Shown piece after piece: positions 671-52,655 of a DNA stretch of 64,000 nt. The notes under the pieces are model-generated. The model worked only from the letters and a program-made list of their open reading frames with translations. It ran no database searches and was not told the DNA's origin. A program made the position numbers and the translations under genes. Each line of letters starts with the position of its first letter. Positions within the stretch are counted from its first letter, which is position 1. Source of the stretch: Candidatus Sericytochromatia bacterium (GTDB taxonomy: Bacteria; Cyanobacteriota; Sericytochromatia; UBA7694; JACMQJ01); the NCBI GenBank assembly GCA_026004035.1, contig BPII01000010.1, positions 1 through 64,000 on the forward strand, in the 5' to 3' direction.

Positions 671-727
671 ATAATATTTCATTTGAGAAGATATTTTAGT
701 TTATAGAATAGAAATTAGGAGGTAGTT

Positions 728-1042
728 ATGGCTAAGAGCTATTCATTTTTAGAAGGAGATAGTATTGAGAATATTGAAAGTGTTGAACAAAAACAGGATA
801 AATTGGAAGATAAAAAAATCTCTAATAAAGGAGATAAAGAAATGGGAAGTAAAAATGAAAAGACTGAGAATAAAATAAAGATTTTTAATAGAACAAATGA
901 GGATATAGAAGTTACATTAGGAAGTAAGAAATTAACTTTCAAGAAATTAGGATACACAGAAATTTCAGATAAAGATTATGAAAGTTTAATGAAAGAAGAG
1001 ATTTTTTCTTTTTATAGAGGTAGATTATTAATTAAAAATTAA
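728..1042 (+). CDS. hypothetical small charged protein before the sheath gene
   Basis: This 104-residue protein starts at an ATG behind a GGAGG ribosome site. Residues 10-50 are almost only Glu, Lys, Asp and Asn and are probably disordered. The C-terminal half (from about residue 50) could form a small beta-rich domain. It ends 13 bases before the sheath gene and is likely co-transcribed with it. I do not recognise a family; a structural or assembly role is only suggested by context. Confidence 0.75.
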   Translation: MAKSYSFLEGDSIENIESVEQKQDKLEDKKISNKGDKEMGSKNEKTENKIKIFNRTNEDIEVTLGSKKLTFKKLGYTEISDKDYESLMKEEIFSFYRGRLLIKN

Positions 1043-1055
1043 TAGGAGGTATTAA

Positions 1056-2843
1056 ATGGCTGATTTATATATAGGTGTTAATGTAAAAGATGCTCAAACT
1101 TTATCTTTAAGACGTCCTGGTTTAGACAATGCTCCGTTAAATACTGCTGGATTTTTAGTTTATAGTGTTAGAGGTATTGATGATGTTATGGTATTTAGCG
1201 ATTTTGATTCAGCTAAAAGGGCATTAGGCGGATTTGATAATAATTATTATGGAATGTATGCGATTAAAGGTTTTTTCGATAATGTAGGTTCAAATGGTAT
1301 TTTGTTTGTTAAAAGATTGATTGATTCTTCTAGTGCATTACCTTCAAGTGCTACATATCAAACAAGAGATACTTTAGGAACAGCTTTTGAAATTAAAGCT
1401 GGTTTTAGAGGGCAAGTTGATAGGGGTACTTGGGGTAATAATTTAAAAGTTAATGTAGTGGATGAAGTTATTGTATTATCTAATTTAGCGGCTAATGCAT
1501 CATCAGGTGCTAATCAAATTCAAGTAGATTCTATTGATGGATATGAAGTAAATGATATAGTTAAAATAGATAATGGTACAAATACAGAATATTTTTATAT
1601 AACATCTATTGATGAACAAAATTTACTTTTAACTTTAAATGGAAATTTAGTTAATTCTTATTCTTCACCAGGTACAACAATTTCAAGGGTTAGATATTCA
1701 ATATATGTATATTATGTAGATCCTTCCAACGGTATTCCTTCATTAGTTGAACAATTTGTAAGTTTATCTTCTAATCCTAATCATAGTAGATATGTAGGGG
1801 ATATTGTTAACAATACAGAAACAGGATCTTCTTTTATTGTTATTGAGAATATTGATATCACAGGAACTTATGATAAGATGCCATCTCCTAATATTGATTC
1901 TAGTTTTGCTAATTCAACTTCATTAACTGGTGGATCTAATGGTAATCCTATTATTACTGGAAATTTACCATCTTATTATGCGACATTAGATAAGTATCCT
2001 ATAAGATTTGTGGCAAATGTTGAAATGTTTGGTGAATCAGCTTATGAAAAAGGTAAAGAATATGCTGATTCTATGAAGGATCGTGTATTTGTATTCAATT
2101 TACCTGATTTAGGTATGTCGAGTGTTCCATCTTTTTCAAGTTTTGATGATATTATATCTTGGATAAAACCAAAAAGAAGATCTGTTAGATATTATAGTAT
2201 GATTGTTAAAGATTGGGTAAATGTTGATAATCCATTAGGAACAGCGTTAAATCCTTATAAAAAAGTTCCTATTGTTGGACATTTGATAGGTTATATGATA
2301 GATCAAATTCTTAAAAAAGGTGTTCATAGAGTTCCAGCTAATACTATTGAATCTATTAAAGGTATAGTAAATATATCTAATGAAGTAATAGACAGAGCTA
2401 AGTTAACAGAATTAGTTGAGAATGGTATAAATGTTGTAAGTACGATAAGCAATGGATTTTATTTAAGAAGTTCAAGAACTATATCTCTTTCAAGAATAGA
2501 AAGATATTTAAATACTATAATGACATTAATTTATGTAAAAGAATCTTTAAAAGGTATAATGATACCTTACGAGAATTATCCAACAGAAAGTTTACCTGCA
2601 TTAGCAGAACAAGTAATTAAAGATTGGGCTAAGAATTTTTATGAATCTAGTTCAAATGGTGGAGCAGAAGGTGGGTTTGGACAGGGTTCATTTGACGAGG
2701 TATTTAAGGTAATAGTAGATGAGTCTGTTAATCCTAAACCTCAATTAGCAGATGGTATAGTAAAGGCATTAGTTTATTTTGTACCACCATCTTCACCAGC
2801 TGAGAAAATATTATTAGAAGTAGGTTTAATTGATTTAATTTAA
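1056..2843 (+). CDS. contractile tail sheath protein
   Basis: The 595-residue product has the length and layout of myovirus tail sheath proteins, which polymerise around the tail tube and contract on infection. The N-terminal region starts with the sheath-like strand and an early Pro-Gly turn. The C-terminal region (about residues 450-595) shows the conserved sheath signature: a 'NGINV' segment, an 'RTIS' strand, then the helix 'IERYLNTIMTLIYVKESLKG'. A GGAGG site precedes the ATG. The tube gene follows 17 bases downstream, the usual sheath-tube order. Confidence 0.92.
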   Translation: MADLYIGVNVKDAQTLSLRRPGLDNAPLNTAGFLVYSVRGIDDVMVFSDFDSAKRALGGFDNNYYGMYAIKGFFDNVGSNGILFVKRLIDSSSALPSSATYQTRDTLGTAFEIKAGFRGQVDRGTWGNNLKVNVVDEVIVLSNLAANASSGANQIQVDSIDGYEVNDIVKIDNGTNTEYFYITSIDEQNLLLTLNGNLVNSYSSPGTTISRVRYSIYVYYVDPSNGIPSLVEQFVSLSSNPNHSRYVGDIVNNTETGSSFIVIENIDITGTYDKMPSPNIDSSFANSTSLTGGSNGNPIITGNLPSYYATLDKYPIRFVANVEMFGESAYEKGKEYADSMKDRVFVFNLPDLGMSSVPSFSSFDDIISWIKPKRRSVRYYSMIVKDWVNVDNPLGTALNPYKKVPIVGHLIGYMIDQILKKGVHRVPANTIESIKGIVNISNEVIDRAKLTELVENGINVVSTISNGFYLRSSRTISLSRIERYLNTIMTLIYVKESLKGIMIPYENYPTESLPALAEQVIKDWAKNFYESSSNGGAEGGFGQGSFDEVFKVIVDESVNPKPQLADGIVKALVYFVPPSSPAEKILLEVGLIDLI

Positions 2844-2860
2844 ATTAAAGGAGGATCAAA

Positions 2861-3487
2861 ATGGCTTGTAGTGCTAATAATATAATCAAATATGTAGTTT
2901 ATATAGAACCTGGTTGTATCTTTAAGGATGATGCTGGTAATCCAACATCAGAATTTACTAATATACAAAATGTTTATGTTATAAACGGGATTAATGCTTT
3001 CACGACAGTAAATCAAAGAGTACCAATTCATGATATAGTTTCTATTGGAAATGAGATGACTGCTGGTGAATTAAACTCACTTGAAGTACCAGTTGGGGAT
3101 AGAAAGGCAAAAACAACAGATGGTATTAGGAATTTACCAGATTTAGATATGGTACTTAAAATTGACAGATCTATAAATCCTGCTTCACCAACTAAAACAA
3201 CAATACATTTTTTTGCTGATTGGTGGAAAAATAGAAATTTATGGGATTTTAATTTCTATATAATGATAACAAATAAGGCTTATCAACATCTCTATGGATA
3301 TAAATACACTGGTGTAACTTTAGCTAAATTTGGAACTGAATCTATTTCAATAGAAGATGTAAAAAGAGGTCAAATTCAATTAAGATTTTATCCTGATAAT
3401 GCTCAATTAGTTGATTGTAATGGGGATGTTATTGATTCATCTTCTGGAAGCTCTTTACCAACAGCTTTTGGAGTTTGTGCCGTATAA
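2861..3487 (+). CDS. tail tube protein (probable)
   Basis: This 208-residue protein follows the sheath gene directly, has a strong AAAGGAGG site, and is followed at once by a terminator, as expected for an abundant structural gene. Length and position fit the inner tail tube of a contractile tail. The family assignment rests on synteny rather than on a clear motif. Its first residues (MAC, then Ala-Asn) resemble the start of the next gene, so the two may be distantly related tube-type proteins. Confidence 0.65.
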   Translation: MACSANNIIKYVVYIEPGCIFKDDAGNPTSEFTNIQNVYVINGINAFTTVNQRVPIHDIVSIGNEMTAGELNSLEVPVGDRKAKTTDGIRNLPDLDMVLKIDRSINPASPTKTTIHFFADWWKNRNLWDFNFYIMITNKAYQHLYGYKYTGVTLAKFGTESISIEDVKRGQIQLRFYPDNAQLVDCNGDVIDSSSGSSLPTAFGVCAV

Positions 3488-3493
3488 TTTATA

Positions 3494-3516
3494 GGGGCTT
3501 TATAGCCCCCGTTTTT
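3494..3516 (+). terminator. rho-independent terminator after the tube gene
   Basis: GGGGCT (3494-3499) pairs with AGCCCC (3504-3509) around a TTAT loop and is followed by a T run. It probably sets apart the highly expressed sheath and tube genes. Confidence 0.85.
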
Positions 3517-3524
3517 ATTTAATT

Positions 3525-4172
3525 ATGGCTTGTACTACAGCTAATAGTAAAAGATCTGGTGTAGTAACCCCACTTTTTAGGATAAGATCAAAAGGTGGTT
3601 TGTTTCAAGAACCTGGAGGAATAATACAAGGTATAAGTAATTTATTTAGGAAATCGTCAGATTTAATTTTTTTACCGATATCTAAAGAATTTTTAGATTT
3701 TTTTATTTTAAATGCTGTTGATATTAAAGAAATATTCAGGGCAATGGGATCAGGGAAATACATATTTTGTTCTATAAAAACACCAGCTAGTTTCAAGTTA
3801 TTAGAAAATGAAACATTTACTGTTAATGAGAAATTTAGAAAGGTAGAAGTTGTTACAAATGTAAAGAAGGTTTCTGATATTAATATTGAGATGCATTTTT
3901 TTCATTACAATAGAAGAAGTATTCTAGAATATTTATTTTTTGTAACGTTATATAGATATAGAGCCTATACAACTTTTGATGTTCTTATAGATTTTACTAA
4001 TAATTATTTTACTACTATATTTTCTTATGATTTTATAGATTGTTCAATAAAAAGTGCTGAAATATTTACAGAACAGGAATTTGACGAATTTGGTAATGTA
4101 ATATCAACAAAATCTAAACCTTTCAAGTTAAGATTAACGTTAATTCCTTATGATGTAAAAATTAGAATATAG
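3525..4172 (+). CDS. tail protein, possible second tube-like protein
   Basis: The 215-residue product lies between the tube gene and the tail assembly chaperone. It begins MACTTAN, close to the tube protein start MACSANN, and the DNA at both starts is nearly identical. The ATG sits only a few bases after the terminator T run and lacks a Shine-Dalgarno sequence, so expression may be low or leaderless. The C-terminal half has alternating beta-strand pattern. A tube-like or tail-terminator role is inferred from position; no motif proves it. Confidence 0.6.
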   Translation: MACTTANSKRSGVVTPLFRIRSKGGLFQEPGGIIQGISNLFRKSSDLIFLPISKEFLDFFILNAVDIKEIFRAMGSGKYIFCSIKTPASFKLLENETFTVNEKFRKVEVVTNVKKVSDINIEMHFFHYNRRSILEYLFFVTLYRYRAYTTFDVLIDFTNNYFTTIFSYDFIDCSIKSAEIFTEQEFDEFGNVISTKSKPFKLRLTLIPYDVKIRI

Positions 4173-4180
4173 ATTATTGA

Positions 4181-4210
4181 TTGACATTTTATTATTAATA
4201 AATTTATTGT
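4181..4210 (+). promoter_or_regulatory. sigma-70-like promoter, probably leaderless
   Basis: TTGACA at 4181-4186 is followed after 18 bases by TATTGT (4205-4210), six bases before the ATG at 4217. No Shine-Dalgarno sequence is present, so the transcript would start at or next to the start codon. Confidence 0.5.
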
Positions 4211-4216
4211 TATATT

Positions 4217-5266
4217 ATGGAAAATAAGAAAAATAGTTTAGATGATACTTTATTTACAAGTAAAAAAAATTCAGGGTCTTCTGATGAATTAAGTATAGAT
4301 AATTATGTTGAAAAATCTATAAACCAATATTCAAATTCTTTCTACGAAAATTTAAAAGATATTAATTTACTTGAAGATAGTGTAGCCATTAAATTGACTG
4401 TTCCTGTATACTTTCAAGATAAAAAATTGGTAGCTGTAAGAATAAAAAGACTATATGTAAAAGATATATCAATGTTAAAAAAAGATTTATCAAAATATGA
4501 TTTTTCAGAAGGAAGGAATATTCATTTGGTTTATAGGTTTTTTGAAACTATACTTTCTTATTCTCTTGAAAGTTTTATATCAGAAGACGGTGAAGATGTA
4601 GATAAAAAATTTAATAGTAGAATAATTTCTTTAATTCCAGTAAATAATGTAACTAAGTTATTAACTGCCATATTTTTGTTAAATCGTGAAAAACCCTATA
4701 TAAATGCTAATTATGAATGTAAATCTTGTAATGTTTTAAATATGTTTGATATAGATCCAGAAGATCCTGATAAAAGAACTTTTCCAGAGGGGGAATTTCA
4801 CGATTTTATGGAGAATATTTTTGATTTTATGGTGGAAGATTATGATATATTTGATGAGAACTTTCAAGAGGAATTTTGTAAAATAGAATTACAAAAACCA
4901 TTCATAATTGATTATAATGAAAAACAGATAAAAGTAGAAACTATATATTTAAAATATCCTTCGATAGGATTATATAATGAAGTGTTAAGTAATCCTAAAA
5001 AAAGAGAAACGTCTGAATTATGGGTAATATACCAGATTATATTTAGAATAAATGATTTAACAGAAGATGAGACATCCTACTTGAAAAGAGTTGTAGGTAT
5101 TAATAATCTCTTTTCAAAGTTTCATGTTAAAGATTTTAAATTGATAAATGATAATTTATTTAGAGATGGATTATCTTTTGAACATAGTTTTACTTGTATG
5201 AATTGTGGAGCTGTTAATAATGTCAGTATGGATCTTACAAATTTTTTCGGATACCTTTCGGATTAG
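4217..5266 (+). CDS. tail assembly chaperone, zero-frame product (gpG-like position)
   Basis: The 349-residue protein sits immediately upstream of the tape measure gene, where tail assembly chaperones are normally encoded, and ends in a slippery sequence that gives access to a second open frame. It has two CxxC pairs: 'CKSC' near residue 172 and 'CMNC' near residue 331, which could form a zinc-binding knuckle. It is longer than lambda gpG. T4-type baseplate hub chaperones also carry CxxC pairs, so a hub-chaperone role is the alternative. The start has no ribosome site and follows a promoter directly. Confidence 0.6.
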   Translation: MENKKNSLDDTLFTSKKNSGSSDELSIDNYVEKSINQYSNSFYENLKDINLLEDSVAIKLTVPVYFQDKKLVAVRIKRLYVKDISMLKKDLSKYDFSEGRNIHLVYRFFETILSYSLESFISEDGEDVDKKFNSRIISLIPVNNVTKLLTAIFLLNREKPYINANYECKSCNVLNMFDIDPEDPDKRTFPEGEFHDFMENIFDFMVEDYDIFDENFQEEFCKIELQKPFIIDYNEKQIKVETIYLKYPSIGLYNEVLSNPKKRETSELWVIYQIIFRINDLTEDETSYLKRVVGINNLFSKFHVKDFKLINDNLFRDGLSFEHSFTCMNCGAVNNVSMDLTNFFGYLSD

Positions 5267-5721
5267 ATAGTGACGTAGAAGTAGTATTAACTCAGGAAGC
5301 TAATGAAAAATTAACTATTTTCTTTGGTGATAAGAATATAAAAGTACTTCCTGAGGAATTATATTACAATTATATAGGATTTGAAATTTTTAAATTTATT
5401 GATAATAATTATCATATTTTTATTGACAAAATTCCATATTCTGTCTTTTCTAATTTAAAGAATCTTTATTTTTATAGTTTTTTTGTATTCAGTTATTATA
5501 TTGATCCTGATTATATATTTCAGGTTGACAGCTATTTAATGGTTTTATCTAAGGGCGGGTTGACTAAGAAAGATTTAGATAGAATGAGTCTTTTTGAAAA
5601 AAGGAAATATTTAGATTATCTAGTAGATATATTTAGGGCTATGAATGATCCAGATTATAAGAAATATTCAGATAATTCTGTAAAAGTGTTAGAGAATGAT
5701 GAAGAATTAAATGAAGGATAA
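5239..5721 (+). CDS. -1 frameshift extension of the tail assembly chaperone (gpGT-like)
   Basis: At 5239-5248 the bases A_AAT_TTT and T_TTT_TTC (in the zero frame) overlap, both fitting the X_XXY_YYZ slippery pattern. A -1 shift moves from the 349-residue frame into a frame open to 5721. That frame has no ATG, GTG or TTG between the shift site and 5539, so its first about 100 codons can be translated only by frameshifting. The fused protein would be about 500 residues. This is the lambda G/GT arrangement, found before tape measure genes in most long-tailed phages. Confidence 0.75.
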   Translation, partial: KFFRIPFGLDSDVEVVLTQEANEKLTIFFGDKNIKVLPEELYYNYIGFEIFKFIDNNYHIFIDKIPYSVFSNLKNLYFYSFFVFSYYIDPDYIFQVDSYLMVLSKGGLTKKDLDRMSLFEKRKYLDYLVDIFRAMNDPDYKKYSDNSVKVLENDEELNEG

Positions 5722-5726
5722 TAGGG

Positions 5727-8700
5727 ATGGCTTTTGAAGAGGATATAAGAGAGCTGGATCGTGTAAATAGAGAATTAAAAGAGATTTATAAGAGATTAAC
5801 ATCAATATATAAGGATATTGGTAATTTAAACAAAACTTATGATCAACCTGAACAGAAAGAATTAAAAAATAAAATAAGAAAAGAATCAATACAGATAAGG
5901 AACAGTTTAAATTTATTTGTATCTAATATTCAAAAATCGATAGGAAATATAAGTAATCAACTTTCAAGTTCAATGTCTGAAATACCTAACGAATCACTTG
6001 AAAAAATAAAAGATAGTGTTATTAAACTGCAATCAAATTTATCTTCATTACCAATTTATTTTAATAGTATAAATAGAGCATTGGGGGATTCTGTATTTTC
6101 TATAAAGAGGTTTTATGAAGATACGATTAGTTTTAGTGATTTAGCGAGTGAAATTATTAAGCAAAATCAACTTAGAGTAAGATCAGCTGTTGGTGGCTTT
6201 GGTGGTATTGGTGGTGGAGGGGGGCAGGAAACAGAGGGAGGTACTGGTGATGGAGGTTCACAATCATTTGTAAGTAGATTAGCATCTGCATCATTAACAG
6301 GTCTTATTATTTCGAGAAGTTTAATGAATGATTTTACTAAATATAAAGCTACTCAACAATCATTATTTCAAACAATATTTAGATTTTTATTTTCATCTAG
6401 TTTAACAGCTAAACCGAGGGAGACTGATTTTAAAGATTTTGCTAGAATAGTTTTTGGAGATGTAGATAGTTGGCGTAAGATAGATCCGTTAACTATTTTT
6501 CAATCTTTTGAATTAGCTGTAAATGAATTTAGAAGAGCTATTTTAAATTTTAATAATTTGAATAATTACCAAAGAAGACTTTTACTAAAAGAAGCTAGTG
6601 TTTCAAATTTTCCATCATTTTTAAAATCATCAAGAGCAATCGATAATATTAAAAAAATAGAAGATTTTTATGATGATTTTACTAAAAGATTAGAAGGTGA
6701 AGAGGTTTTAGATGTTAATTTATTGAAAAGATTTAATGTTTCTTTAAAAAATTTTACTGATAATATTAGTTATGAATCTTCATTTTTACCATCTATTTTT
6801 TCTGGTATAGAACAGAATATAAGAGAAAGTATCGGATTTTTAGGAGATAAAGAAGTTCCATTAAAACTATCAGATATAGTATATGAAGTTTTAAATAGAA
6901 ATTTATTTGGAGGAAAAGCTGGAATAAAACCTAATGCAAGTTTAGTTCTATTTAATAGAATAGAAGAAATCGTTGATAAGTTTTCAAGTGGTTTGGATTT
7001 AAATGATGAAGAAGTTAGAAATGAAATTGGAAATTTAAGAAAAAGTTTACTTTTAATGAATAAAAGTACCTATCGTTTTACTACTTTACTTAATGAAGTG
7101 GCTGGAAGATTTTTAGCATCATTTTTAAATATAGATATTGTTAAGTTTACAAAAAATTTTACTGATTTTTCTAATCTTTCTTTATCTAAAATAGTAGAAA
7201 GTTTTAAAAAAGGTGAAATAAGGACATTCAATCCTTTTATAAGAGTAAATATAGTCGGAGAAAAAACTGGTGAATATTTTAAAAGTTTATTAAAAAAGAG
7301 GACTTTACCGTCAGCTTTAGGTCTTGGAGCTTTAAAAGGTTTAACTTCGTTTTTAGGACTTGAAAGAGGTATTACAGAGATAGCATCTTTAAAAGCAAAA
7401 TTATTAGAGTTAGATGATTTAGGAAGTAGTATATTTTCTAAAACAATGGCTGTAATTTCAAGTGTATTTAGTGCAGGTTCAAAAACATTACTTGATGTTA
7501 TAAAAAAAGTAGCAAATGCTATAAAATATCCTTTATCAATAGCTTTAAAACAAGTACAAGCGTTATCTGTTGCTATATCAGGATTAGCAGTTGTTGCGGG
7601 ATTAGCTTTTGGATCTGTGTATTTTGGTTTAATAAGACCTTTAGTTGAGTCTGCAAAAGTAAGTGAACAAAGATTTGTAAGGTTAGAATCGGCTTTACAG
7701 AGTACAACACAAGCTGTTTATGAATATCAAAGAGCAATACAATTTGCTTCAAGAACACCATTTTTAATCTCACAGGTATCTGATGCTTCTGCAATGTTAA
7801 GAGCATTCCAATTTGATCCGTTTGAGAAGGTTGGTGAGAGTGGTAGAATGTTGATAGAGATTTTAGGGGACATGGCTGGTGCTATGGGAACTGATCTTGA
7901 AACAGCTACTTGGGCTTTGATTAGGGCACAAGTTGGCGAATGGGAAATTATGCAAAATAACTTTCAAATATCAGCTAGAATGATACCTCAATTAAAAGGA
8001 CTAGCAAGTGGAACAAAAGAATATGGACAAGCAATAGTTGAATTTTTAGATAAACAACAAAGATTTATGGGCGGCTTGTTTAAAATGAGCCAATCTATAC
8101 AAGGTATGCAGTCTAATATAAGAGATTTTCTAGGGGTTATATTAGAATATGCAATAGGTATAGTTGATGCTAATAGTATGTTAAGAGGTACTACGTTTGT
8201 TGATGAATATAAAGAATTTTTGAGGGGTACTTATTTTAGAGTTACAGCAAGGGATGTTGTAGAAAATATAAAGAATATTGAATTAATGAGTCAGTCTGCT
8301 TCTTATGGTATAAGAAAATTAGCAGATCAGTTTGATAAAGAGTTTAATAGAATGGGGGATGATGTAATAAATTTATATAATCTTTCAGAGCAGTTAAAAG
8401 AGAGTATATCTTTCAAGGATGTAAGAAATGAGATAAAACCGTTTATTTCAGAAATGGAAAAATTAAATGAAATAGAAAAAGAAAGATTTTTCTTTGCTTC
8501 TGTAATACCTACTTTATGGTCTAAATTAAAAGCACCAGAACAACCTCAAATAGCACCAGATTCTTTTAGATTGGCAATGGCTCAAACTTTATTATTTGGT
8601 AATGAATTAACTAAAACATTGGGTAGAATTTTAGGAATTGTACTTTCTATCATAATGAAATTGTTTTATCCTGTACAGAGATTATTTGAATTTATTATAG

Positions 8701-11648
8701 AGAAAATAAAAATGTTAACTTTGTCTATTCTCAATTTTTTTGCACCTCTTGAAAAAATGTTGCAAGTACCAGCTAGATTAGGAAGGGATTTTAATAAATC
8801 TTTTAATGAAGTAGCTTTAAGTGTAGTGCAAGGAATGGGAAAATCATTTTCAATAACAGCGGATCAATTTTCAAGATTTAGAGATAGGTTATTAGAATTT
8901 AATAGAGATTATGCATTTTCTTTAAGAGATTTATCTAAGCAAGGTTCTGATAGAATTTTAGCTTCTATGACTTTACTTGAAAGATGGATAATGGTTTTAG
9001 CAATTGTAGGAGAATTTGCTAAATTATATATAGAAGATTTATTCAAGGAGATTTGGAAAAATACAGAACAATTTAGAAAAGTAATAGGTGAAATTTATTC
9101 TATTATTGGAAGTTTTGTTTTTGATGTATTTAAGGATATATCGGTAGGATTTTTTGAAGGGTTAACTGCTGTTTTTGATCCTAGTATATTTTTAAAATTT
9201 CTTGAATCTATAAGAAATTTGGTTAAAGCAATAGATGATGCTTTTAGAGAAGTTTTAGGGTTAGGAAAAGAAGGTAGTGTTTTAAGAAATTTATCTCAAA
9301 TGATAGGTGGAACATTGATGTTTTTAGTTCAAGGTTTTGTTCAACTTATAACTTTATTTTTAGATGGATTAACTTGGGTTGTAAAAACATTTTTACCTAT
9401 TGCACTAGAAGGGATAAAAGGTTTAGTGAATTTTATAAAACCTATTATTTTAGGTATAGGTGATTTGTTTGCAAGTTTAGGTATAGGTATATCAAAAGAC
9501 AAGTGGGAAAAACTTAAAAAAGAACATTTTGGAATAGAACCTTTACCAGAAAAAGAATCTGATATAATGAAAATGAATTTAGCGACAGGTGTAACTCCTT
9601 TATTGGGGTTATCATTCATAATGACGGGGGGTTTCAAGAAATTTTTTGAAGGAATTATAGAAGAACTAAGGAAATTTATATATGGAAGTTTTATTATAAG
9701 AATAGAATCTTTCATTAAAGCATTTAAAGGAAAACTTATAAATCTAAAAAATTTATTTTCAGATCCTAAATTATTAGGTAAAAAGACTTTTGATATATTG
9801 TTAAATGCAGGTAAATTTTTAATAAGCTCGATTTTTAAAGCAATAGGTAAGATTGCAACTTTGTTATTATATCCATTTATTAAGTTAGGTAAGATATTAT
9901 TATCGCCTATTAGATATTTAATAAGATTATTAACAACTTCACCAGAACAAAGAAGGTTAGAGAGATTAAAGAGAAAATATGAAAAAATGTGTCCTTTTGC
10001 AGATCCTAATATGTTGAATTCTATCTGTTCTGAACAACTTTCAAGAAAAAGAAAAATATTTGGCGGTAAAGGATTAGAAATTCCTGAATATAGTAAACAA
10101 TCTAGTACAAAAGAAAGAAGAATTTTATCTAAATTGGGTAGTGGATTAGGTACAGTTTTTTCACCAGGTATGATGTTTTTATCAGATATATTAGATATGG
10201 TTTCTGCAAGTGAAGATTTAGATCAAGATAAAAAAGGTATTAACAAATCAAAATCAGAGAAAACTTTAAGCGGTATTTTAAAAGATACACTTCCTTCTTT
10301 AGGATTTTTATTTTCTATTCTTGAAACACTTGTTGAATTTTTAGGTCCGATTTTTAAAAAAGGTATTTTATTTTTGTTGAGAAGATTTGGACAGAAAACA
10401 ATTTTAAAAACTGGATTAAAGCTATTAGCTAGTGGTGCAGGATTTTTATCTGGTATCTTTTTAGGTCCTGTCGGTTGGATTATAGATATTTTAATGATAT
10501 TAGATTTAATAGATGACATATTTGGATTAGGTATTAAAGATAAAATAGCCGAGTGGTGGGATCAGCTGAAAGATTATTTTGATAGATTAGATTTAAAATC
10601 TGAAGCAATGCAAATTAAATCTTGGTTATCTTCTATGTGGGGTAGTTTTGTTAAAGGTATAAAAGATAAAATTTATGGTTTTACTAGTTGGTTTGTGAAT
10701 TTATTTTCGGGTAATAGTGATGTTAAGACAAATAAAAAGGTAAATAAATTAAAATTAGATGTTCAAGGAAATAAAGAAAGTATTTTATCTAGTTTTATAG
10801 ATTGGGTAAAAAATAGTATAGGTAAAATTTCTAAAGGAATAAAGGATTTATTTGGAATAACTGATGATAGAGGATTATTAGATATAATAACAGAAGGTTT
10901 TAATAGTTTTGTTGAAAGTATTGGTGATGTTTTAAGAAGTATATTTATTAAATTGCAAGTATATCTAAAATCGTTAATTCCAATGGGAGCTATAATTTTA
11001 GGTAAAGTTTTTAAAGCTCTCGGTTCTACTTTTTCTAGTATAGGATCAGATATTGAAAGTTTTGGTACTGCTGGAACTATAACGGAGTTTAATAAAATTG
11101 TAAACGAGTTAAAGAAAAATAAAATCATAACAGAAAAGGGCGAGAAAAAAACCTTTTTTGATATTTTGAGGAGTGGTTTAGATATAGATAAATTAAAAAT
11201 AGCTCCTAGTTCAGGAGATGAATCAGATATAAAAAATCAATTAAAATATTACAGAGAGTATTTAAAAGCGTTAGAGAATATAATAAGAAAAAATAATTTA
11301 ATAAATCAATTAGATAGTGATGCATTGGATTTAATTAATAATTCTGTTTCAAGAAATAGTTTTAATTTATTAAAAGATAGTAATTTCAAACCAGTAGCAT
11401 ATACATCTAGTCCAAATCAAACTCAGGTTTTAAATAATATAAATTTATTAAATAGAAATACTACACCTTCTATTGTTAATATTAATGTGAGTGTAAATTC
11501 AGGTACAAATGAACCTGAAAGATTGGGAAGTATTATAGCGACGGAAATAAAAAGACAATTTAACGATTATATATCAGAAAGTTTGTCTAAATCTAAATTA
11601 AATAGTATTTATAATTTTCATACACCTGCTGTTTCAAGAAGTATTTAA
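5727..11648 (+). CDS. tail tape measure protein
   Basis: At 1973 residues this is the longest gene in the window, and it lies just after the frameshifted chaperone. It begins with long amphipathic coiled coils (residues 1-130), then a Gly-rich linker near residues 155-180, a hydrophobic segment near 615-640 and many further hydrophobic helices. These are typical of proteins that set tail length and form a membrane channel. Using the usual rule of about 0.15 nm per residue, the tail would be near 300 nm; this is inference. The C-terminal 100 residues are polar and may be processed. Confidence 0.93.
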   Translation: MAFEEDIRELDRVNRELKEIYKRLTSIYKDIGNLNKTYDQPEQKELKNKIRKESIQIRNSLNLFVSNIQKSIGNISNQLSSSMSEIPNESLEKIKDSVIKLQSNLSSLPIYFNSINRALGDSVFSIKRFYEDTISFSDLASEIIKQNQLRVRSAVGGFGGIGGGGGQETEGGTGDGGSQSFVSRLASASLTGLIISRSLMNDFTKYKATQQSLFQTIFRFLFSSSLTAKPRETDFKDFARIVFGDVDSWRKIDPLTIFQSFELAVNEFRRAILNFNNLNNYQRRLLLKEASVSNFPSFLKSSRAIDNIKKIEDFYDDFTKRLEGEEVLDVNLLKRFNVSLKNFTDNISYESSFLPSIFSGIEQNIRESIGFLGDKEVPLKLSDIVYEVLNRNLFGGKAGIKPNASLVLFNRIEEIVDKFSSGLDLNDEEVRNEIGNLRKSLLLMNKSTYRFTTLLNEVAGRFLASFLNIDIVKFTKNFTDFSNLSLSKIVESFKKGEIRTFNPFIRVNIVGEKTGEYFKSLLKKRTLPSALGLGALKGLTSFLGLERGITEIASLKAKLLELDDLGSSIFSKTMAVISSVFSAGSKTLLDVIKKVANAIKYPLSIALKQVQALSVAISGLAVVAGLAFGSVYFGLIRPLVESAKVSEQRFVRLESALQSTTQAVYEYQRAIQFASRTPFLISQVSDASAMLRAFQFDPFEKVGESGRMLIEILGDMAGAMGTDLETATWALIRAQVGEWEIMQNNFQISARMIPQLKGLASGTKEYGQAIVEFLDKQQRFMGGLFKMSQSIQGMQSNIRDFLGVILEYAIGIVDANSMLRGTTFVDEYKEFLRGTYFRVTARDVVENIKNIELMSQSASYGIRKLADQFDKEFNRMGDDVINLYNLSEQLKESISFKDVRNEIKPFISEMEKLNEIEKERFFFASVIPTLWSKLKAPEQPQIAPDSFRLAMAQTLLFGNELTKTLGRILGIVLSIIMKLFYPVQRLFEFIIEKIKMLTLSILNFFAPLEKMLQVPARLGRDFNKSFNEVALSVVQGMGKSFSITADQFSRFRDRLLEFNRDYAFSLRDLSKQGSDRILASMTLLERWIMVLAIVGEFAKLYIEDLFKEIWKNTEQFRKVIGEIYSIIGSFVFDVFKDISVGFFEGLTAVFDPSIFLKFLESIRNLVKAIDDAFREVLGLGKEGSVLRNLSQMIGGTLMFLVQGFVQLITLFLDGLTWVVKTFLPIALEGIKGLVNFIKPIILGIGDLFASLGIGISKDKWEKLKKEHFGIEPLPEKESDIMKMNLATGVTPLLGLSFIMTGGFKKFFEGIIEELRKFIYGSFIIRIESFIKAFKGKLINLKNLFSDPKLLGKKTFDILLNAGKFLISSIFKAIGKIATLLLYPFIKLGKILLSPIRYLIRLLTTSPEQRRLERLKRKYEKMCPFADPNMLNSICSEQLSRKRKIFGGKGLEIPEYSKQSSTKERRILSKLGSGLGTVFSPGMMFLSDILDMVSASEDLDQDKKGINKSKSEKTLSGILKDTLPSLGFLFSILETLVEFLGPIFKKGILFLLRRFGQKTILKTGLKLLASGAGFLSGIFLGPVGWIIDILMILDLIDDIFGLGIKDKIAEWWDQLKDYFDRLDLKSEAMQIKSWLSSMWGSFVKGIKDKIYGFTSWFVNLFSGNSDVKTNKKVNKLKLDVQGNKESILSSFIDWVKNSIGKISKGIKDLFGITDDRGLLDIITEGFNSFVESIGDVLRSIFIKLQVYLKSLIPMGAIILGKVFKALGSTFSSIGSDIESFGTAGTITEFNKIVNELKKNKIITEKGEKKTFFDILRSGLDIDKLKIAPSSGDESDIKNQLKYYREYLKALENIIRKNNLINQLDSDALDLINNSVSRNSFNLLKDSNFKPVAYTSSPNQTQVLNNINLLNRNTTPSIVNINVSVNSGTNEPERLGSIIATEIKRQFNDYISESLSKSKLNSIYNFHTPAVSRSI

Positions 11649-11661
11649 TAGGAGATAAACT

Positions 11662-12573
11662 ATGTTAAAGTTTGTATCAGAAAAACTTAAATTTTTACAA
11701 AATGGTATACCTTTAATAATAGCTCAATATCATCCATTAGCTTTTTTAAATAGAAATATACCATTTTGGAAATCATTATTAACTATGAAGATTTTTGCAA
11801 CTAAAGTATTTCCAGAAGAAGTTAGTTATGAAAAGAAAATGAATTTTTTTAATATATCATCACCTGGAATGTATGAGCAAGTAGTTGGTTTTATTAAAGC
11901 AGAATCAGATAGGTACAAATTTAAACTAAATTTAGCTAGAATTAATGAATTTAATGGAGTAATGCCTGAAATAGAATTTTTTAGAGGGTTTTTGAAACCA
12001 CAAAAAGTAGAGAATGATTTTTTAAGTGTATTGGGAACTGGATTAGATCAATCTTTTAGAAAAAATAGTTTTATAGAACCTCCTAAGGCGTTGATTATAG
12101 GTATAGATGGATTTTTACCTTTATTATTTCATGTTGAGTCCGTCGATCTCAAGTTTAGGGATTATAACACATATAATTTTCCTACAATAGCAGAAGTTAA
12201 TATTAGTTTAGTTAAAATACCCAATAATTTATTTGATACAGCTAAAGAGAGTTTCGATAAGTTTTTTGAGATGGTATTTTCTGTATTTGTTTCTGATTTA
12301 AGAAATTGGACTGTTGATAGAAAGACATATCAAGGGAATGTTTTTGGATTATTAATAGAGTTTATGGATAGTTTTGAAAGAACTGGGATTTCATCGCAGG
12401 TTATCAATGTATTTAACGGTCTTTTTGGTGATTCGGATGTAAATAATGTAGATATAGATGAGGCATCTGTATTAACAAAAATTTATCAGTTGACAAATGA
12501 CGTATTTCTAGCTGATATGGTATCTAAGAAGTACAAAGATTTTGTTAAATATGGTGGTTTCAAGAACTTTTAA
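11662..12573 (+). CDS. tail tube-baseplate adaptor (LysM/Afp7-like position)
   Basis: This 303-residue protein follows the tape measure gene. Residues about 145-195 contain a Pro-Pro, a strand ending in Gly-Ile-Asp-Gly, and 'YNTYNFPTIAEVNISLVKI', which matches the pattern 'PP ... YT.FD..G.P..A.V.L.L' of the tube initiator/hub adaptor proteins of contractile injection systems and Mu/XkdP-like phages. I see no clear LysM domain. The likely role is joining the tube to the baseplate hub. Confidence 0.55.
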   Translation: MLKFVSEKLKFLQNGIPLIIAQYHPLAFLNRNIPFWKSLLTMKIFATKVFPEEVSYEKKMNFFNISSPGMYEQVVGFIKAESDRYKFKLNLARINEFNGVMPEIEFFRGFLKPQKVENDFLSVLGTGLDQSFRKNSFIEPPKALIIGIDGFLPLLFHVESVDLKFRDYNTYNFPTIAEVNISLVKIPNNLFDTAKESFDKFFEMVFSVFVSDLRNWTVDRKTYQGNVFGLLIEFMDSFERTGISSQVINVFNGLFGDSDVNNVDIDEASVLTKIYQLTNDVFLADMVSKKYKDFVKYGGFKNF

Positions 12574-42321: not shown

Positions 42322-42660
42322 ATGAATTTAGAAGTCAGTATTGAAACAGATAATAATTTATTAGATAGTGGTTTAAAGATAAAGGAAATGTATATTAAAA
42401 AGGATACCGATGATAAGAAATTTATTATAGCTTTTATAAAGACATTAGAAAATAATGAAATTCCTATTGTTAAGGTATCTGGAAATGAAGCTATTGCTAA
42501 GTTATCTAAGATTCTAGCGAGTGTAGATTCTATCTTGAAAGACAAGTATATCATTACGTGGTCGATTAAGTGGGATAAAGATGTTGGAAAGAAAGATGGT
42601 GAAATAATTACTATTTTGAAATATATTTGTATTTTCAAGGAGATTAGAAAAGGAGGTTAA
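42322..42660 (+). CDS. hypothetical protein
   Basis: The 112-residue protein starts 6 bases after the promoter -10 and lacks a ribosome site. A strand-helix-strand pattern ('FIIAFIKTL', 'VDSILKDKYIITWSIKWD', 'ILKYICIFKEI') suggests a small alpha/beta fold. It ends in an AGGAGG site used by the next gene. The function is unknown. Confidence 0.68.
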   Translation: MNLEVSIETDNNLLDSGLKIKEMYIKKDTDDKKFIIAFIKTLENNEIPIVKVSGNEAIAKLSKILASVDSILKDKYIITWSIKWDKDVGKKDGEIITILKYICIFKEIRKGG

Positions 42661-47876: not shown

Positions 47877-47946
47877 AAAGCCAGCTTAGCGATTTAAGCC
47901 GTGTTCGGCTTGGATAAATTCCAGGTCGGGCACGGCTTTTTTTTTG
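47862..47946 (+). terminator. two consecutive structured elements, the second a terminator
   Basis: GCTAAGTCTGG (47862-47872) pairs with CCAGCTTAGC (47881-47890) with one bulge. Next, AAGCCGTG (47896-47903) pairs with CACGGCTT (47931-47938) followed by a T run. Inside this stem sit a symmetric 5x5 loop (TTCGG/TCGGG) and a second stem CTTGGA/TCCAGG capped by TAAAT. The long interrupted hairpin is unlike the simple terminators elsewhere in the window and might be a structured RNA. Confidence 0.7.
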
Positions 47947-47969
47947 GACTTTTTAAATTGGAGATTTTT

Positions 47970-48242
47970 ATGGAATTTAGAATAAAATTAGAAAAAAAAG
48001 AAAAAAAGTATGTAGCAAGTTGCTACATACTTACTAGTGATGGGGAAATAATCCCATTAGAAAAAGTAATGGGATTATTTCAAGGTAGAAACTTGGAAGA
48101 AATAGAAATGAAAATCAGAAGAAAATTAGAAAAATCAAATTCTCTACTATTAGAAAGCATATATAGACATGTGGCTATGAATAAAGAAAAAATTACTTCT
48201 AAAATTGAAAATAAAAACTTTTATGATTCAATTTTAGTTTAG
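47970..48242 (+). CDS. hypothetical 90-residue protein preceding the E1 gene
   Basis: The ATG at 47970 follows TTGGAG. The product has two strands ('EFRIKLEKK', 'KYVASCYILT'), a helix (50-70) and a polar tail. A beta-hairpin plus helix could fit a beta-grasp fold, but there is no Gly-Gly end. Two perfect 13-bp inverted repeats lie inside the coding sequence. It is a candidate accessory of the conjugation cassette, on context only. Confidence 0.55.
   Translation: MEFRIKLEKKEKKYVASCYILTSDGEIIPLEKVMGLFQGRNLEEIEMKIRRKLEKSNSLLLESIYRHVAMNKEKITSKIENKNFYDSILV
48006..48079. repeat. two adjacent perfect 13-bp inverted repeats inside a gene
   Basis: AAGTATGTAGCAA (48006-48018) and its exact complement at 48020-48032 are separated by one base. 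AATAATCCCATTA (48047-48059) and its exact complement at 48067-48079 are separated by seven bases. Both lie within coding sequence and would form strong hairpins in the mRNA or cruciforms in DNA. Confidence 0.85.
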
Positions 48243-48257: not shown

Positions 48258-49874
48258 ATGGAAAAAGAAATTTTCGAAGTTTTAGAAGAGTTAGATATAG
48301 AAAAATTAGAAAAAAATGTTGTGTTTGAGATTGGATATAAAAAAGGAAAAGAAAATGGATATGATGCTGGATATGAGGATGGATATGAAAAAGGGAAAGA
48401 AGTTGGATACGAAGAAGGATATGGTTCTGGATATGAAGAAGGAAAAGAAGATGGATATAGAGAGGGGTATAGGGAAGGGAAAGAGGTTGGATACGAAGAA
48501 GGATATGAAGCTGGCATCGAAAATAGCGATACTTATGATGAAGGATATAATTCTGGTTATGAACTAGGAAAAAAAGAAGGTTTCAAGCTAGGACTAAAAT
48601 CAGCTTTTTCAAACCAAATAGAAGAATTAGAATTAGAAGGATCAGATAAAATTCTACTGGCAGAGTATGAGAAGTTTAAAATCCAAATTTTTAAAAAATT
48701 AGAAAGTCTTTCTAGAAAAGACTACATAAATAATTTAGAATTTGATGATCTTTTTAATATTCTTATAGAAATTCTAAGAACTATTAAATCTAAATATTCT
48801 GGATTAATTTCTTATGATTTACTGATAAAAGATCCAGCGATATTTTTAAACTTATACAGTCAAATCAGCTCTATTATTAATAGAAACTTTTCAGTGAATA
48901 TTGAATCTAAGCTAATTGATCATTTATCTACTAGATATTCGCTAAATCCTTCTTACATGAAAAACATAATAAACATAGAAACTGATCTTTATAAAATAAT
49001 AAAAGTTATATGTAAAGAAAATAAATCGTTTTGTTTTAGAAATTATATTCTAAGTGAAAATATATTTAAATTTATTTATAGGAATGAAACAAGTATTTCT
49101 AAAATAGATTATGAGAAGTTTTTCAAATTTTTATTTTCTAAAAGTGTTGAATTAATTAATACCAAATTTGAAATAATTTCTAGATTAAGAAAATTAGAAA
49201 ATAAATTAAGAATAAACTTCCTAGGAGCAGGAGGAGTTAATTCAAATCTAATTTATCTGTGGGTATTATCATGGAAATATTTTCATGAAATTTTCTATTT
49301 TGATGGTATTCAAATTTGGGATCTTGTTACTTTAAGGATTTACGATCCAGACAAGTTTCAGTTATCCAATATTTTTAGGATTATTCCTAGTATAAATATT
49401 GGAGCTAGAAAGCCTTGTGAAATAACAAATGTCATAAAGCGCGCCTATTATAAAGCTAATTGTTTCTATAAAAATGCTTTTATAAAACACGATGTAAAAG
49501 ATTTAGACCCAACTTCTAATATTTGTGTTGGATTAGTTTCTACAAACGAAAGAAAGGAAATATATAATGGTTTGGCTGAAAGAAAAATTAACTTTTTAGA
49601 AGTAACTTCTCTTAATAACTATGTATATTTTAGAGAGAATCCTCTAATAGACGAAGATTTGTTTTTAGCAAATGAGACGTATGGTCAACTAGATCCATTT
49701 TCTTTTATGAGTGATTTTTTCTTTAACTGGAAGGAATTGGATAAATTTATTTTAAGAGTATTAGAAAATGGTTATGTAGAAAGGAACAAAAGAGAAAAAT
49801 TAAGAAATACAAAAAGATCTATAATTATGTTAGATAATATTTTACAAAAAATCAACCAAGGAGGGGTTATATGA
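48258..49874 (+). CDS. E1-like (ThiF/UBA) adenylyltransferase with GYxxG-repeat N-terminus
   Basis: In this 538-residue protein residues 25-105 are a run of Gly-Tyr-x-x-Gly tetrads rich in Glu and Lys. A helical middle follows, then an E1 fold from about residue 317: 'INFLGAGGVNSNL' (nucleotide loop, Gly323-Ser329), 'IYDPDKFQLSNIFRI' (D.D.....N..R, with Asp363/365, Asn371, Arg374), 'NIGARKP' (Lys385) and 'VGLVSTNERKEI' (the usual Dn...R segment). Family members adenylate the C-terminus of ubiquitin-like proteins. Block order and spacing resemble PRTRC-type ThiF proteins. The stop overlaps the next start (ATGA). Confidence 0.8.
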   Translation: MEKEIFEVLEELDIEKLEKNVVFEIGYKKGKENGYDAGYEDGYEKGKEVGYEEGYGSGYEEGKEDGYREGYREGKEVGYEEGYEAGIENSDTYDEGYNSGYELGKKEGFKLGLKSAFSNQIEELELEGSDKILLAEYEKFKIQIFKKLESLSRKDYINNLEFDDLFNILIEILRTIKSKYSGLISYDLLIKDPAIFLNLYSQISSIINRNFSVNIESKLIDHLSTRYSLNPSYMKNIINIETDLYKIIKVICKENKSFCFRNYILSENIFKFIYRNETSISKIDYEKFFKFLFSKSVELINTKFEIISRLRKLENKLRINFLGAGGVNSNLIYLWVLSWKYFHEIFYFDGIQIWDLVTLRIYDPDKFQLSNIFRIIPSINIGARKPCEITNVIKRAYYKANCFYKNAFIKHDVKDLDPTSNICVGLVSTNERKEIYNGLAERKINFLEVTSLNNYVYFRENPLIDEDLFLANETYGQLDPFSFMSDFFFNWKELDKFILRVLENGYVERNKREKLRNTKRSIIMLDNILQKINQGGVI

Positions 49875-50809
49875 ATATAAAAGATTTAATTTTAGAAGAA
49901 ATAAAAAGCGAAAAAAAAGTAGGAAGTTTATTCATAAAAGAAGTTAGAATTGATGAGGTAATAGAAATTCCAGAAATATTACTAGAAAGAGAAGATTTTT
50001 TTAATTATCAGGATTTTATAGTTAAAAAAGTAAGTTTAAATCTAATTGACGGGCTAAAACTATTGGAAAAATTATATGGAAATAAACTATTTTATGGGTG
50101 TTTATTAGATATTTATGAATTTGATTTTAAATATTGGTTTGGTGATAGAAAACTAATAAATTTTAGCGAAGTTTTAATGATTAATAATAGAAAAGAATTT
50201 GTAAAAAATCATCTAGACAATGTTTATGGAAAATTCAATTTTTATCTTTATTTTTATAAAAAAGAGCCAGTTCTAAAAAAACTTAATAAAGATGAAGAAA
50301 AATTACTGGAATTTGAAGTAGATCTATATCTAAGAAGTTTCTGCGATATTGATCTAGTGTTAGGTCTGAAAATGGATGAGCTAATGGAAATTATTGAAGC
50401 TTCTAGCTTAGCTCAAAAATTTATTAATAATAGTTTTATAGATTTACAGAAAATTATCCCAAAAAAGAAAGAAAATTCGTTATTTTCTATTCCAGTAACA
50501 GTATTAGCTAGTGAATTATCTTATCCGTATTATGGCAATATAGTTTTTAATTTTGGAAGTAAAATAGAAGTTATCTATGAAGGAATATTTGGAAGTCCTA
50601 ACATAAAACCAAATAGTATCTGTCTTGGGAATTTTAGCAATGATAATATTCTAAATTATTTTGTCTTGAAAGACGGGAATTTAAATAGCCCGTATAAAAC
50701 CAAGATTGTTTTAGATGACGTTGGACTATTAGATACTTATATTTATTTACTAAAAAACATTATAAAAAATTTAATAAAAGAATTGCTAAAACAATTAGAG
50801 GAGGTTTAG
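49871..50809 (+). CDS. probable E2-like conjugating protein (PRTRC-B-like)
   Basis: The 312-residue protein is translationally coupled to the E1 gene. Its C-terminal part has strands 'NIVFNFG' and 'KIEVIYEG', then 'GSPNIKPNSICLGNF' with Cys251, and a final helix pair. This closely follows the E2 active-site pattern H-P-N-(V/I)...G-x-I-C-L, where the Cys carries the modifier as a thioester. The first 200 residues are not recognised. The motif is seen directly; E2 function is inference, helped by the E1 and JAB neighbours. Confidence 0.6.
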   Translation: MNIKDLILEEIKSEKKVGSLFIKEVRIDEVIEIPEILLEREDFFNYQDFIVKKVSLNLIDGLKLLEKLYGNKLFYGCLLDIYEFDFKYWFGDRKLINFSEVLMINNRKEFVKNHLDNVYGKFNFYLYFYKKEPVLKKLNKDEEKLLEFEVDLYLRSFCDIDLVLGLKMDELMEIIEASSLAQKFINNSFIDLQKIIPKKKENSLFSIPVTVLASELSYPYYGNIVFNFGSKIEVIYEGIFGSPNIKPNSICLGNFSNDNILNYFVLKDGNLNSPYKTKIVLDDVGLLDTYIYLLKNIIKNLIKELLKQLEEV

Positions 50810-50810
50810 T

Positions 50811-51818
50811 ATGAAATTCAAAAAAAATAAAAAGGAAGATGTATTAGCATCTTCCTTAGTTTCAACAGAAGATAAGAAAAATCCAGAAATATTGGAGACA
50901 GATAGAATTTGTACAATATTATACTTTCAAGAAAAATGGATGTATAATTCTTTAGTAAAAAAATGTAGAAAAATTGCTAAAGGGAATGAATTTCAATTTA
51001 ATTTCAATGTCCTAGAAGTTCTTCTTGAAAGTAAAGATAAAAAAGCAAAAATATTTTTAGTGTTTCCTTTAGGGATATTTAACTATCCTCAGAAGGTGAC
51101 TGGAGCTAGTATCTTTTTTAATTTGATTGATGTTAATAATATTTCTAAGGAAATTGATGAAGAATCAAAAAAAATTATGAATAAAATTATTCCTAAATTA
51201 AACTCTCTAAAGAAATTAGAGAGTTTATTTAATATTAAGTATCTTTATGTTAGAGATGGGATGTCAATTCATAGGCATCCTGGAAGATTTGGCTTTAGTA
51301 GTACTGATCTAGATATGAATAAGAATAATCCTGGTGTTGTTTACAGGAAGTCATCAGGAAAGGGATTTGTTCAGGTAGATAATGTTATGTATTGGGAAGA
51401 TCAGTTTGAATTGATTACCAGTGAATCTAGATATATAGTCTTAAAAGATTTTAGGGGGGCTTACGTTATTAATGATTGCGTAGCTATTGTTAAAAAATAT
51501 AGCAAATTATATGAAAAATATCTTGGAATAGAGGATAGTGAATTTTATACAATTGGTGTTTCAAGGATTTTAGAAACGCCGTTAGGAGATGTATTTAAAG
51601 AATTACTGTCTAAAATAGATTATGATATTTTCTATAAAGTAGATCCTTCTAATATAGAAGAGTATATACCAATTTATAAAACTAGTTTTTATTACGACAA
51701 CTATAAAAATAAAAAAGATAATTTGAAAGAAAAAGAATATTTATATTATGGTAAAGAGGATTTAGAAAAAGGTTTATATTTTTTTGATGATGAAGATTGG
51801 GAACTCTACTGGAAATAA
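50811..51818 (+). CDS. JAB/JAMM-like metalloprotease candidate (PRTRC-A-like)
   Basis: The 335-residue protein contains 'SIHRHPGRFGFSSTD': His154-x-His156, then S-x-x-D at 163-166, the JAMM zinc motif with six rather than seven intervening residues. A possible catalytic Glu is Glu69 in a strand about 85 residues upstream. JAB proteases of such cassettes trim or remove ubiquitin-like proteins. It starts one base after the E2-like stop and has an AGGAGG site. Two perfect inverted repeats lie in its coding sequence. Confidence 0.65.
   Translation: MKFKKNKKEDVLASSLVSTEDKKNPEILETDRICTILYFQEKWMYNSLVKKCRKIAKGNEFQFNFNVLEVLLESKDKKAKIFLVFPLGIFNYPQKVTGASIFFNLIDVNNISKEIDEESKKIMNKIIPKLNSLKKLESLFNIKYLYVRDGMSIHRHPGRFGFSSTDLDMNKNNPGVVYRKSSGKGFVQVDNVMYWEDQFELITSESRYIVLKDFRGAYVINDCVAIVKKYSKLYEKYLGIEDSEFYTIGVSRILETPLGDVFKELLSKIDYDIFYKVDPSNIEEYIPIYKTSFYYDNYKNKKDNLKEKEYLYYGKEDLEKGLYFFDDEDWELYWK
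50832..50857. repeat. perfect 10-bp inverted repeat in the JAB-like gene
   Basis: AAGGAAGATG (50832-50841) and its complement at 50848-50857 are separated by six bases, close to the start codon, where a hairpin could affect translation. Confidence 0.8.
51199..51227. repeat. perfect 12-bp inverted repeat in the JAB-like gene
   Basis: TAAACTCTCTAA (51199-51210) and its exact complement (51216-51227) are separated by five bases, inside coding sequence. Confidence 0.8.
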
Positions 51819-51833
51819 TTTCAGGAGGTTTTT

Positions 51834-52655
51834 ATGTATAAGTTTGGAAACAAGTTTCAAGAGTATTTTAGAAAAAATAAGAGAAGGTTTCTAAAAAACG
51901 ATTGGATAAGAGATACTCTTGAATTGGTAGATCCGTTCTATAATTTTCATAAAAAAATTTTTGAAAAGAAGTTTAATGTAGAGATTTATAAATTTGAACA
52001 TCAATTAATTAGAATGTTATATTTATATCTCATAGCTGATAATTTAGAAGAAATTAAGAATGTAGATAATGTAGATTTGGTAAAAAAGTTATTTTTTAAA
52101 GAGGGATTATATCTAGTAGGGGTTTATGATAAACTTAGTATTCCTACTAGAAGATTTGTATCGTCGAATAGTCATATTCTTCTAAAAACAAAAAGCAATA
52201 TTGATCTAAATATTTTATCTAAGGATAAATTTGATCTTAGAAGGTATTTACTAAACGATATTATTTTCTATTTTTTTAATCTTTATTTAGATACTGATTT
52301 AGATTTATATCTTTTTAATGAAAATTTATTTTTTGAAAAAAAACACCAATACGGAATTGGTGCTATGTTGTTAAAAAGCAAGTACAGATCAAACATTTTG
52401 ATCCATAGAAAAAAGGTCTTTGATTCTGGGAATGTACAAAATTTTATCTTAATAGGATATGCTGGCGAAAGATTTATAAATGAAGATCTAAAATTTGACA
52501 TTTTCAAGTATGTAGAAAGTTATTCTAGAATAGATTTAATAAAATGGCAGTATAATCTGTTCCAGGAAATTGATCCTGTAAAGAGCTACATAATAAAAGC
52601 ATTACATAGGGGGTATTTTACTCCCAGAATTGGAAAAGTTAAAAGAAAAAAATAA
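51834..52655 (+). CDS. hypothetical protein, last gene of the conjugation cassette
   Basis: The 273-residue basic protein starts behind TCAGGAGG and ends before a terminator. It is mostly helical with Phe/Tyr-rich segments, and has no motif I recognise. It shares operon, codon habits (more CTA Leu and TCT Ser) and spacing with the E1, E2-like and JAB-like genes, so it is probably a fourth component, for example substrate or adaptor. Confidence 0.65.
   Translation: MYKFGNKFQEYFRKNKRRFLKNDWIRDTLELVDPFYNFHKKIFEKKFNVEIYKFEHQLIRMLYLYLIADNLEEIKNVDNVDLVKKLFFKEGLYLVGVYDKLSIPTRRFVSSNSHILLKTKSNIDLNILSKDKFDLRRYLLNDIIFYFFNLYLDTDLDLYLFNENLFFEKKHQYGIGAMLLKSKYRSNILIHRKKVFDSGNVQNFILIGYAGERFINEDLKFDIFKYVESYSRIDLIKWQYNLFQEIDPVKSYIIKALHRGYFTPRIGKVKRKK

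Follow-up and report, generated by a model that had tools for sequence, protein, structure and literature searches.

Three adjacent genes in the window (the whole stretch of DNA analysed, bases 1-64000 of the 83,083-base contig C10) encoded an E1-like adenylating enzyme, an E2-like protein and a JAB-like metallopeptidase, and the same order of genes, E1>E2>JAB, was found in six other viral contigs. We hold with moderate confidence that these genes form a phage-specific module for reversible protein conjugation of the E1-E2-JAB type, in a new phage variant. Prokaryotic conjugation operons are marked by this combination of adenylating enzyme, cysteine protein and JAMM peptidase (PMC1779556), and no report of such a cassette in a phage was found in the searched open-access literature, the coverage of which was incomplete.

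Gene layout and phage setting

The cassette and its immediate surroundings comprised the following features:

47901..48242, + strand: small gene and weak candidate partner, separated by 15 nt from the E1 gene that follows it; with a start at the ATG at 47970 its product has 90 aa
48258..49874, + strand: E1-like (ThiF-superfamily) adenylating enzyme; 538 aa, with the conserved E1 domain at about residues 217-538 after a phage-specific N-terminal extension
48315..48600, + strand: GxxxG-type repeats (GYEEGYEEGKEDGY...) within the E1 N-terminal extension; Yae1_N / FliH-like matches
49871..50809, + strand: E2-like protein; 312 aa, with a single invariant Cys251 in a SICLG motif
50811..51818, + strand: JAMM/JAB (MPN+) metallopeptidase-like protein; 335 aa, with predicted Zn ligands H154, H156 and D166, accompanied by E60 and S163
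51834..52655, + strand: fourth gene; 273 aa, 15 nt 3' of the JAB gene and outside the conserved set

By the ORF calls, the E1-like and E2-like genes overlapped by 4 nt and the E2-like and JAB-like genes were separated by 1 nt. These coordinates agreed with the first-pass annotation, which had described three adjacent, coupled genes over a range that also spans the fourth gene. The motif residues lay where that annotation had placed them (GAGGVNS, the D/N/R set and K385 in the E1-like protein, C251 in the E2-like protein, and H154/H156 and S163/D166 in the JAB-like protein). The fourth gene is probably co-transcribed with the cassette; it matched no family and had no convincing relative at the other phage cassette loci. 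Searches of Pfam, PHROGs, NCBIfam and PADLOC left the E2-like and JAB-like proteins unrecognised, and the significant matches of the E1-like protein were to its N-terminal repeats.

Contig C10 was part of a bin of 2.64 Mb that was 75% complete and divided into 46 contigs, and this bin was placed in the cyanobacterial phylum. The GC content of the window (24.7%) was similar to that of the other bin contigs (23-26%), and bin membership alone does not assign the phage to a host. The contig carried genes of a contractile-tailed phage (myovirus), matching tail sheath (phrog_23, 1.2e-9) and baseplate wedge (phrog_219, 1.2e-26), together with DnaB, PolA and UvsW-type helicase families. The cassette was distant from the sheath and baseplate genes, and these matches upheld its earlier placement inside a phage and away from tail genes. 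No terminal repeat of at least 20 bases was present in the outer 3 kb of the contig. By reading, dUTPase-like, ThyX-like and ribonucleotide-reductase-like genes were noticed at positions 550-5992 of locus L002 (contig C10 60550-65992).

Conservation of the cassette among phages

Relatives were sought with a DNA pattern for the JAB motif, followed by profile-guided scans of viral contigs. The hand-made pattern HxHPGxxxFSxTD gave seven matches, three of them true homologues (L038, L039 and L044); at L040-L042 the motif fell in other, unrelated-looking ORFs, and L043 had no ORF match. Homologues were present on nine other viral contigs: L045 (272 kb), L046 (114 kb), L047 (281 kb), L048 (137 kb), L049 (42 kb), L050 (66 kb), L051 (122 kb), L054 (167 kb) and L056 (17 kb). 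The order E1>E2>JAB was found on L045, L047, L048, L049, L051 and L056, which range from 17 to 281 kb, the last of these contigs stopping inside the JAB gene. Neighbouring genes at the loci with this order, the window included, were spaced by -11 to +20 nt; the exception was L045, with a DUF6884 gene between E2 and JAB. Parts of the cassette also occurred separately, on contigs that may be fragments: L054 carried an E1-E2 pair (9965-12271) and no JAB was found on it, while L046 and L050 carried a JAB and no E2.

HMMs built without the window proteins placed the window E1, E2 and JAB each far above unrelated ORFs. As the cassette motifs are kept at matching positions in independent phage genomes, they are more than a chance resemblance, and the reading of the three genes as a cassette was strengthened by a gene order kept in seven phage contigs. 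The absence of Cys251 or of the HxH pair from homologues had been named in advance as one of two findings that would count against the cassette; both proved invariant, and the claim survived this half of the test.

When six phage contigs were compared gene by gene, the JAB was the only family common to all of them at E<1e-4; E1 and E2 were common to the other five at that threshold, and the window joined them by profile. Apart from the cassette, what the window phage had in common with the others at E<1e-4 was limited to a helicase (1.7e-9) and one protein of tail-fibre type (4.6e-6). Since the JAB was the sole common family, these sequence comparisons suggest that the cassette either moves between otherwise unrelated phages or is retained by them under unusually strong constraint.

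Several neighbouring genes were noticed by reading. In four phages an SbcD-like nuclease gene came next 3' of the JAB or next but one, and in two a QueC-like gene did so (neighbourhoods at L046 11828-14591, L050 11796-14554, L047 11718-12755 and L048 12176-13231); sequence comparison also showed homology among these loci. A FolE-like gene (6873-7625) and a prohibitin/SPFH-like gene (11618-12559) flanked the cassette of L051. Two small genes upstream of E1 were alike in L049 (4858-5744) and L056 (8945-9804), so the cassettes of these two contigs may share a neighbourhood.

Other searches gave no relatives. Viral contigs scanned with single window proteins or terminase-like queries gave no match, probably because the peptides chosen were not conserved ones. 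No real relative was obtained by tblastn against phage and plasmid records, in which the match to MT836088.1 (E=0.3) was an unrelated, bacterial-looking sequence. The 292 genomes of the phylum, a reference set that includes cyanobacteria (for example locus L019, the Nostoc sp. UHCC 0926 plasmid NZ_CP117771), gave short chance matches only. A pattern scan of GTDB species genomes with the JAB alignment found no relative, and an HMM search of 17 other genomes of the class found none, the phage's own contig being the sole match.

The three proteins

The window E1 contained GAGGVNS at 323, DPDKFQLSNIFR from 363 (D363, D365, N371, R374), K385 and ETYG at 473. Among the eight aligned phage E1s, GxGG, N, D, N, R, a second R and the last motif, as E[TS]YG, were invariant; the DxD pair began with D in the window protein but with E in those of the other phages, and the Lys following the D/N/R set was seen by eye in seven of the eight. 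An HMM of the other phage E1s matched the window protein over residues 217-480 (E=1.5e-7, in a small database). Profile comparison of the phage E1s with ThiF and PRTRC-ThiF by hhalign gave a probability of 92% and E-values of 4.6e-7 to 7e-7. The score was 54.7, whereas 60 column shuffles reached 17.6 at most and FtsZ gave 23. The earlier assignment to the ThiF/E1 fold is thus supported, in that the nucleotide loop, the D..N..R set and the ThiF profile all point to membership of the E1/ThiF superfamily. An FtsZ reading of the GxGG loop, raised by a PDB sequence match (E=0.059), was ruled out by the direct profile comparison. The Yae1/FliH-resembling N-terminal repeats were confined to the window E1 and absent from the other aligned phage E1s.

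In the alignment of the eight phage E1s, Cys stayed below 30% in every column, so that a conserved catalytic cysteine of the kind expected in a transthiolating E1 was lacking. PRTRC E1s have one Cys column, invariant in 9/9, that is absent from every phage E1; in the matching region the phage proteins carry E[TS]YG and then a helix-like stretch that resembles the one after the PRTRC Cys, a correspondence made by eye. The usual GAPD stretch had its Asp replaced by Ser in the window E1.

In the JAB-like protein, E60, H154, H156, S163 and D166 were invariant in all eight aligned members, E60 being the invariant JAMM glutamate that is here added to the residues named earlier. Homologues of this protein occurred on seven other viral contigs (best 3.8e-40), and an HMM built without the window protein matched it at 2.5e-48 in a small database. 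The AF2 model had a pLDDT of 56 and a pTM of 0.59 overall, and most blocks of its core (55-155) had a pLDDT of 75-93. Of the best 50 PDB matches listed in a fold search, 49 were JAB/MPN-domain entries, including AMSH, Sst2, Npl4, Rpn11, Prp8-Jab1 and BubCD (9ea4). The matches were individually modest (best E 1.5e-3) yet consistent, and the model thus supports an MPN fold. Together with the full invariant JAMM set, they substantiated the earlier JAB/JAMM identification. Among the entries of a viral structure library that matched the model were a Podoviridae protein without a name (E 1.8e-7) and one labelled 'MPN family protein', so that by these model-based matches the family may be wider than found here. 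The phages concerned included Podoviridae sp. ctiuS14 and ctQyH19; crAss-like viruses gave weaker matches, labelled 'Ubiquitin-like protein' and '26S proteasome regulatory subunit'.

The E2 assignment was weaker than those of E1 and JAB. Cys251 and Gly253 were invariant in the eight aligned phage E2-like proteins, and the single conserved Cys in these had its parallel in 12/12 PRTRC-B proteins. An HMM from the other phage E2-like proteins matched the window protein (E=7e-7, in a small database). Compared with the 12 PRTRC-B proteins, the E2-like profile scored 21.2 against a maximum of 17.2 in 60 shuffles (profile E=0.05), and the weak alignment spanned conserved Pro, Asn and CxG positions; kinship to PRTRC-B is suggestive only at this level of sequence similarity. 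PRTRC-type E2 proteins have a conserved His downstream of the Cys (PMC1779556), and the phage E2-like alignment had no such column. The AF2 model was of low confidence (pLDDT 47.7, pTM 0.48) and gave no fold match below E 0.4. The earlier E2 claim therefore stood as to the conserved Cys251, and the low-confidence model was uninformative as to a UBC-type fold. Given the invariant Cys, the gene slot and the marginal PRTRC-B match, an E2 identity of the protein encoded at 49871-50809 is plausible.

Search for the modifier

No ubiquitin-like gene with a C-terminal Gly was recognised near any cassette, and no small protein family was common to all phage contigs compared. The small genes at 47465, 47718 and 47970, which the first-pass annotation had put forward as candidates for the modifier, gained no support: none was conserved near other cassettes and none was convincingly ubiquitin-like. 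The small gene 47901-48242 had no homologue at other loci and was weakly similar to 42322-42660 (E=0.044). The latter, on the + strand, encodes a 112-aa protein ending in RKGG and was found while seeking small proteins with a C-terminal Gly; it had no relatives in the other phages compared. Its Gly-Gly end is the one feature that makes it a possible modifier, and by our own estimate chance would give about 0.1 such ends in the set of small genes. A very divergent ubiquitin-like protein may be shared by the phages.

Proposed mechanism and alternative explanations

In the mechanism that we propose, the C-terminus of a modifier would be adenylated by the E1-like enzyme at the expense of ATP. Cys251 of the E2-like protein would next accept the acyl group, probably from the adenylate itself; this direct transfer is inferred from the lack of a conserved Cys in the phage E1s. 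The E2-like protein would then join the modifier to an amino group of a target, and the JAB metallopeptidase would remove the modifier from the target or trim it. By analogy with CBASS, in which Cap2 conjugates the C-terminus of cGAS and needs no separate ubiquitin-like gene (PMC10097602), the modifier could be a phage protein from elsewhere in the genome, or it could be a host protein. A tentative extension of this proposal, to which we assign less than an even chance, is that the phages carry a conjugation lineage of their own, with a Cys-less E1 feeding the E2 Cys directly and no dedicated ubiquitin-like protein, shared as an infection tool among otherwise unrelated, mostly large phages. 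Counting against a conjugation module were the separability of its parts (L054; L046 and L050), the lack of a ubiquitin-like gene near any cassette, the E2 model of low confidence with no fold match, the loss from the phage E1s of the Cys invariant in PRTRC E1s, and the Ser in place of the GAPD Asp of the window E1.

The closest known relative in outline is PRTRC (ThiF, PRTRC-B, PRTRC-A and PRTRC-C; type 6d of Iyer et al.), in which separate E1, E2 and JAB genes also adjoin on mobile DNA, a plasmid or ICE there and a phage here. It is unlikely, in our view, that the cassette is a diverged system of this type with an unrecognised canonical small ubiquitin-like protein. The three enzyme classes are the same, the E1 profile match was significant (among NCBIfam models the L051 E1 matched PRTRC_ThiF best, E=0.021), and the E2-like protein, also with one invariant Cys, resembled PRTRC-B weakly. 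However, plasmid loci run B, A, ThiF, the PRTRC E1 Cys and E2 His are missing in the phages, and no PRTRC-C-like gene was seen beside the cassette. The JAB comparison with PRTRC-A scored 15.0, below the shuffle maximum of 18.1, and all phage members have the spacing HxH-x6-SxxD, with one residue fewer than PRTRC-A, in which it is x7. The kinship to PRTRC suggested earlier thus stood for E1 at the superfamily level, was marginal for PRTRC-B and was not significant for PRTRC-A. Bil, Bub and type II CBASS likewise offer partial parallels. CBASS provides a precedent for E1, E2 and JAB without a separate ubiquitin-like gene, but Cap2 is one fused E1+E2 protein with its own catalytic cysteines, and no CD-NTase or effector was recognised beside the phage cassette. 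Bil (BilABCD) and Bub share the E1, E2 and JAB set, and BubCD was among the JAB fold matches, but no BilA/BubA-like modifier was found here and it is the phage itself that encodes the cassette. No relevant PADLOC match to the Bil or type II CBASS models was obtained for the window, L047 or L051 proteins. The phage-encoded JAB domain also recalls lambda/T1 gpK/gpI (JAB plus ubiquitin-like TAPI), which differ in that the present cassette lies outside the tail genes, has no recognised NlpC/P60 and includes E1-like and E2-like genes. Since no ubiquitin-like gene was found with it, and since it lacks the PRTRC E1 Cys and E2 His and shows no PRTRC-A similarity above shuffles, the cassette is not a member of PRTRC, Bil or CBASS.

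The ThiF family includes many enzymes that are, strictly speaking, no E1s. The E1-like enzyme could thus activate a carboxylate for sulfur transfer or for the building of a small peptide or cofactor, in the manner of MoeB, ThiF or MccB, with the cysteine protein as acceptor and the JAB as processing peptidase. The Cys-less E1s, the lack of a ubiquitin-like gene and the unconfirmed E2 fold would fit such a role; the coupling of E1, E2 and JAB in seven contigs argues against it, as does the fact that no rhodanese, ThiS/MoaD or other cofactor genes were noticed beside any cassette, and we give it a low probability. A counter-defence role, in which the module, mainly its JAB, would strip or block host conjugates of the Bil or CBASS type or the E1 and E2 would serve as decoys, appears improbable to us. 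It would accord with the JAB as the most conserved part, present without E2 on two contigs, and with Cap3, also a JAB, which reverses conjugation in CBASS (PMC10097602). Against it, the key residues of E1 and E2 are kept, though a pure deconjugase needs neither enzyme to be active, and none of the three proteins was matched by a relevant PADLOC model. Modification of host proteins or defence against other phages, which the first-pass annotation had named beside counter-defence, may also be the role of the module. We retain a reversible conjugation module as the preferred reading.

Implications

Bacterial ubiquitin-like conjugation has been noticed mainly as an anti-phage defence. A complete, phage-conserved set of E1, E2 and JAB would invert this theme, with viruses possessing their own protein-tagging machinery. 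The family makes it testable whether an E1 without a catalytic Cys can feed an E2, with several independent versions at hand, and the recurrence of the cassette suggests that some bacterial viruses carry machinery that attaches one protein to another.
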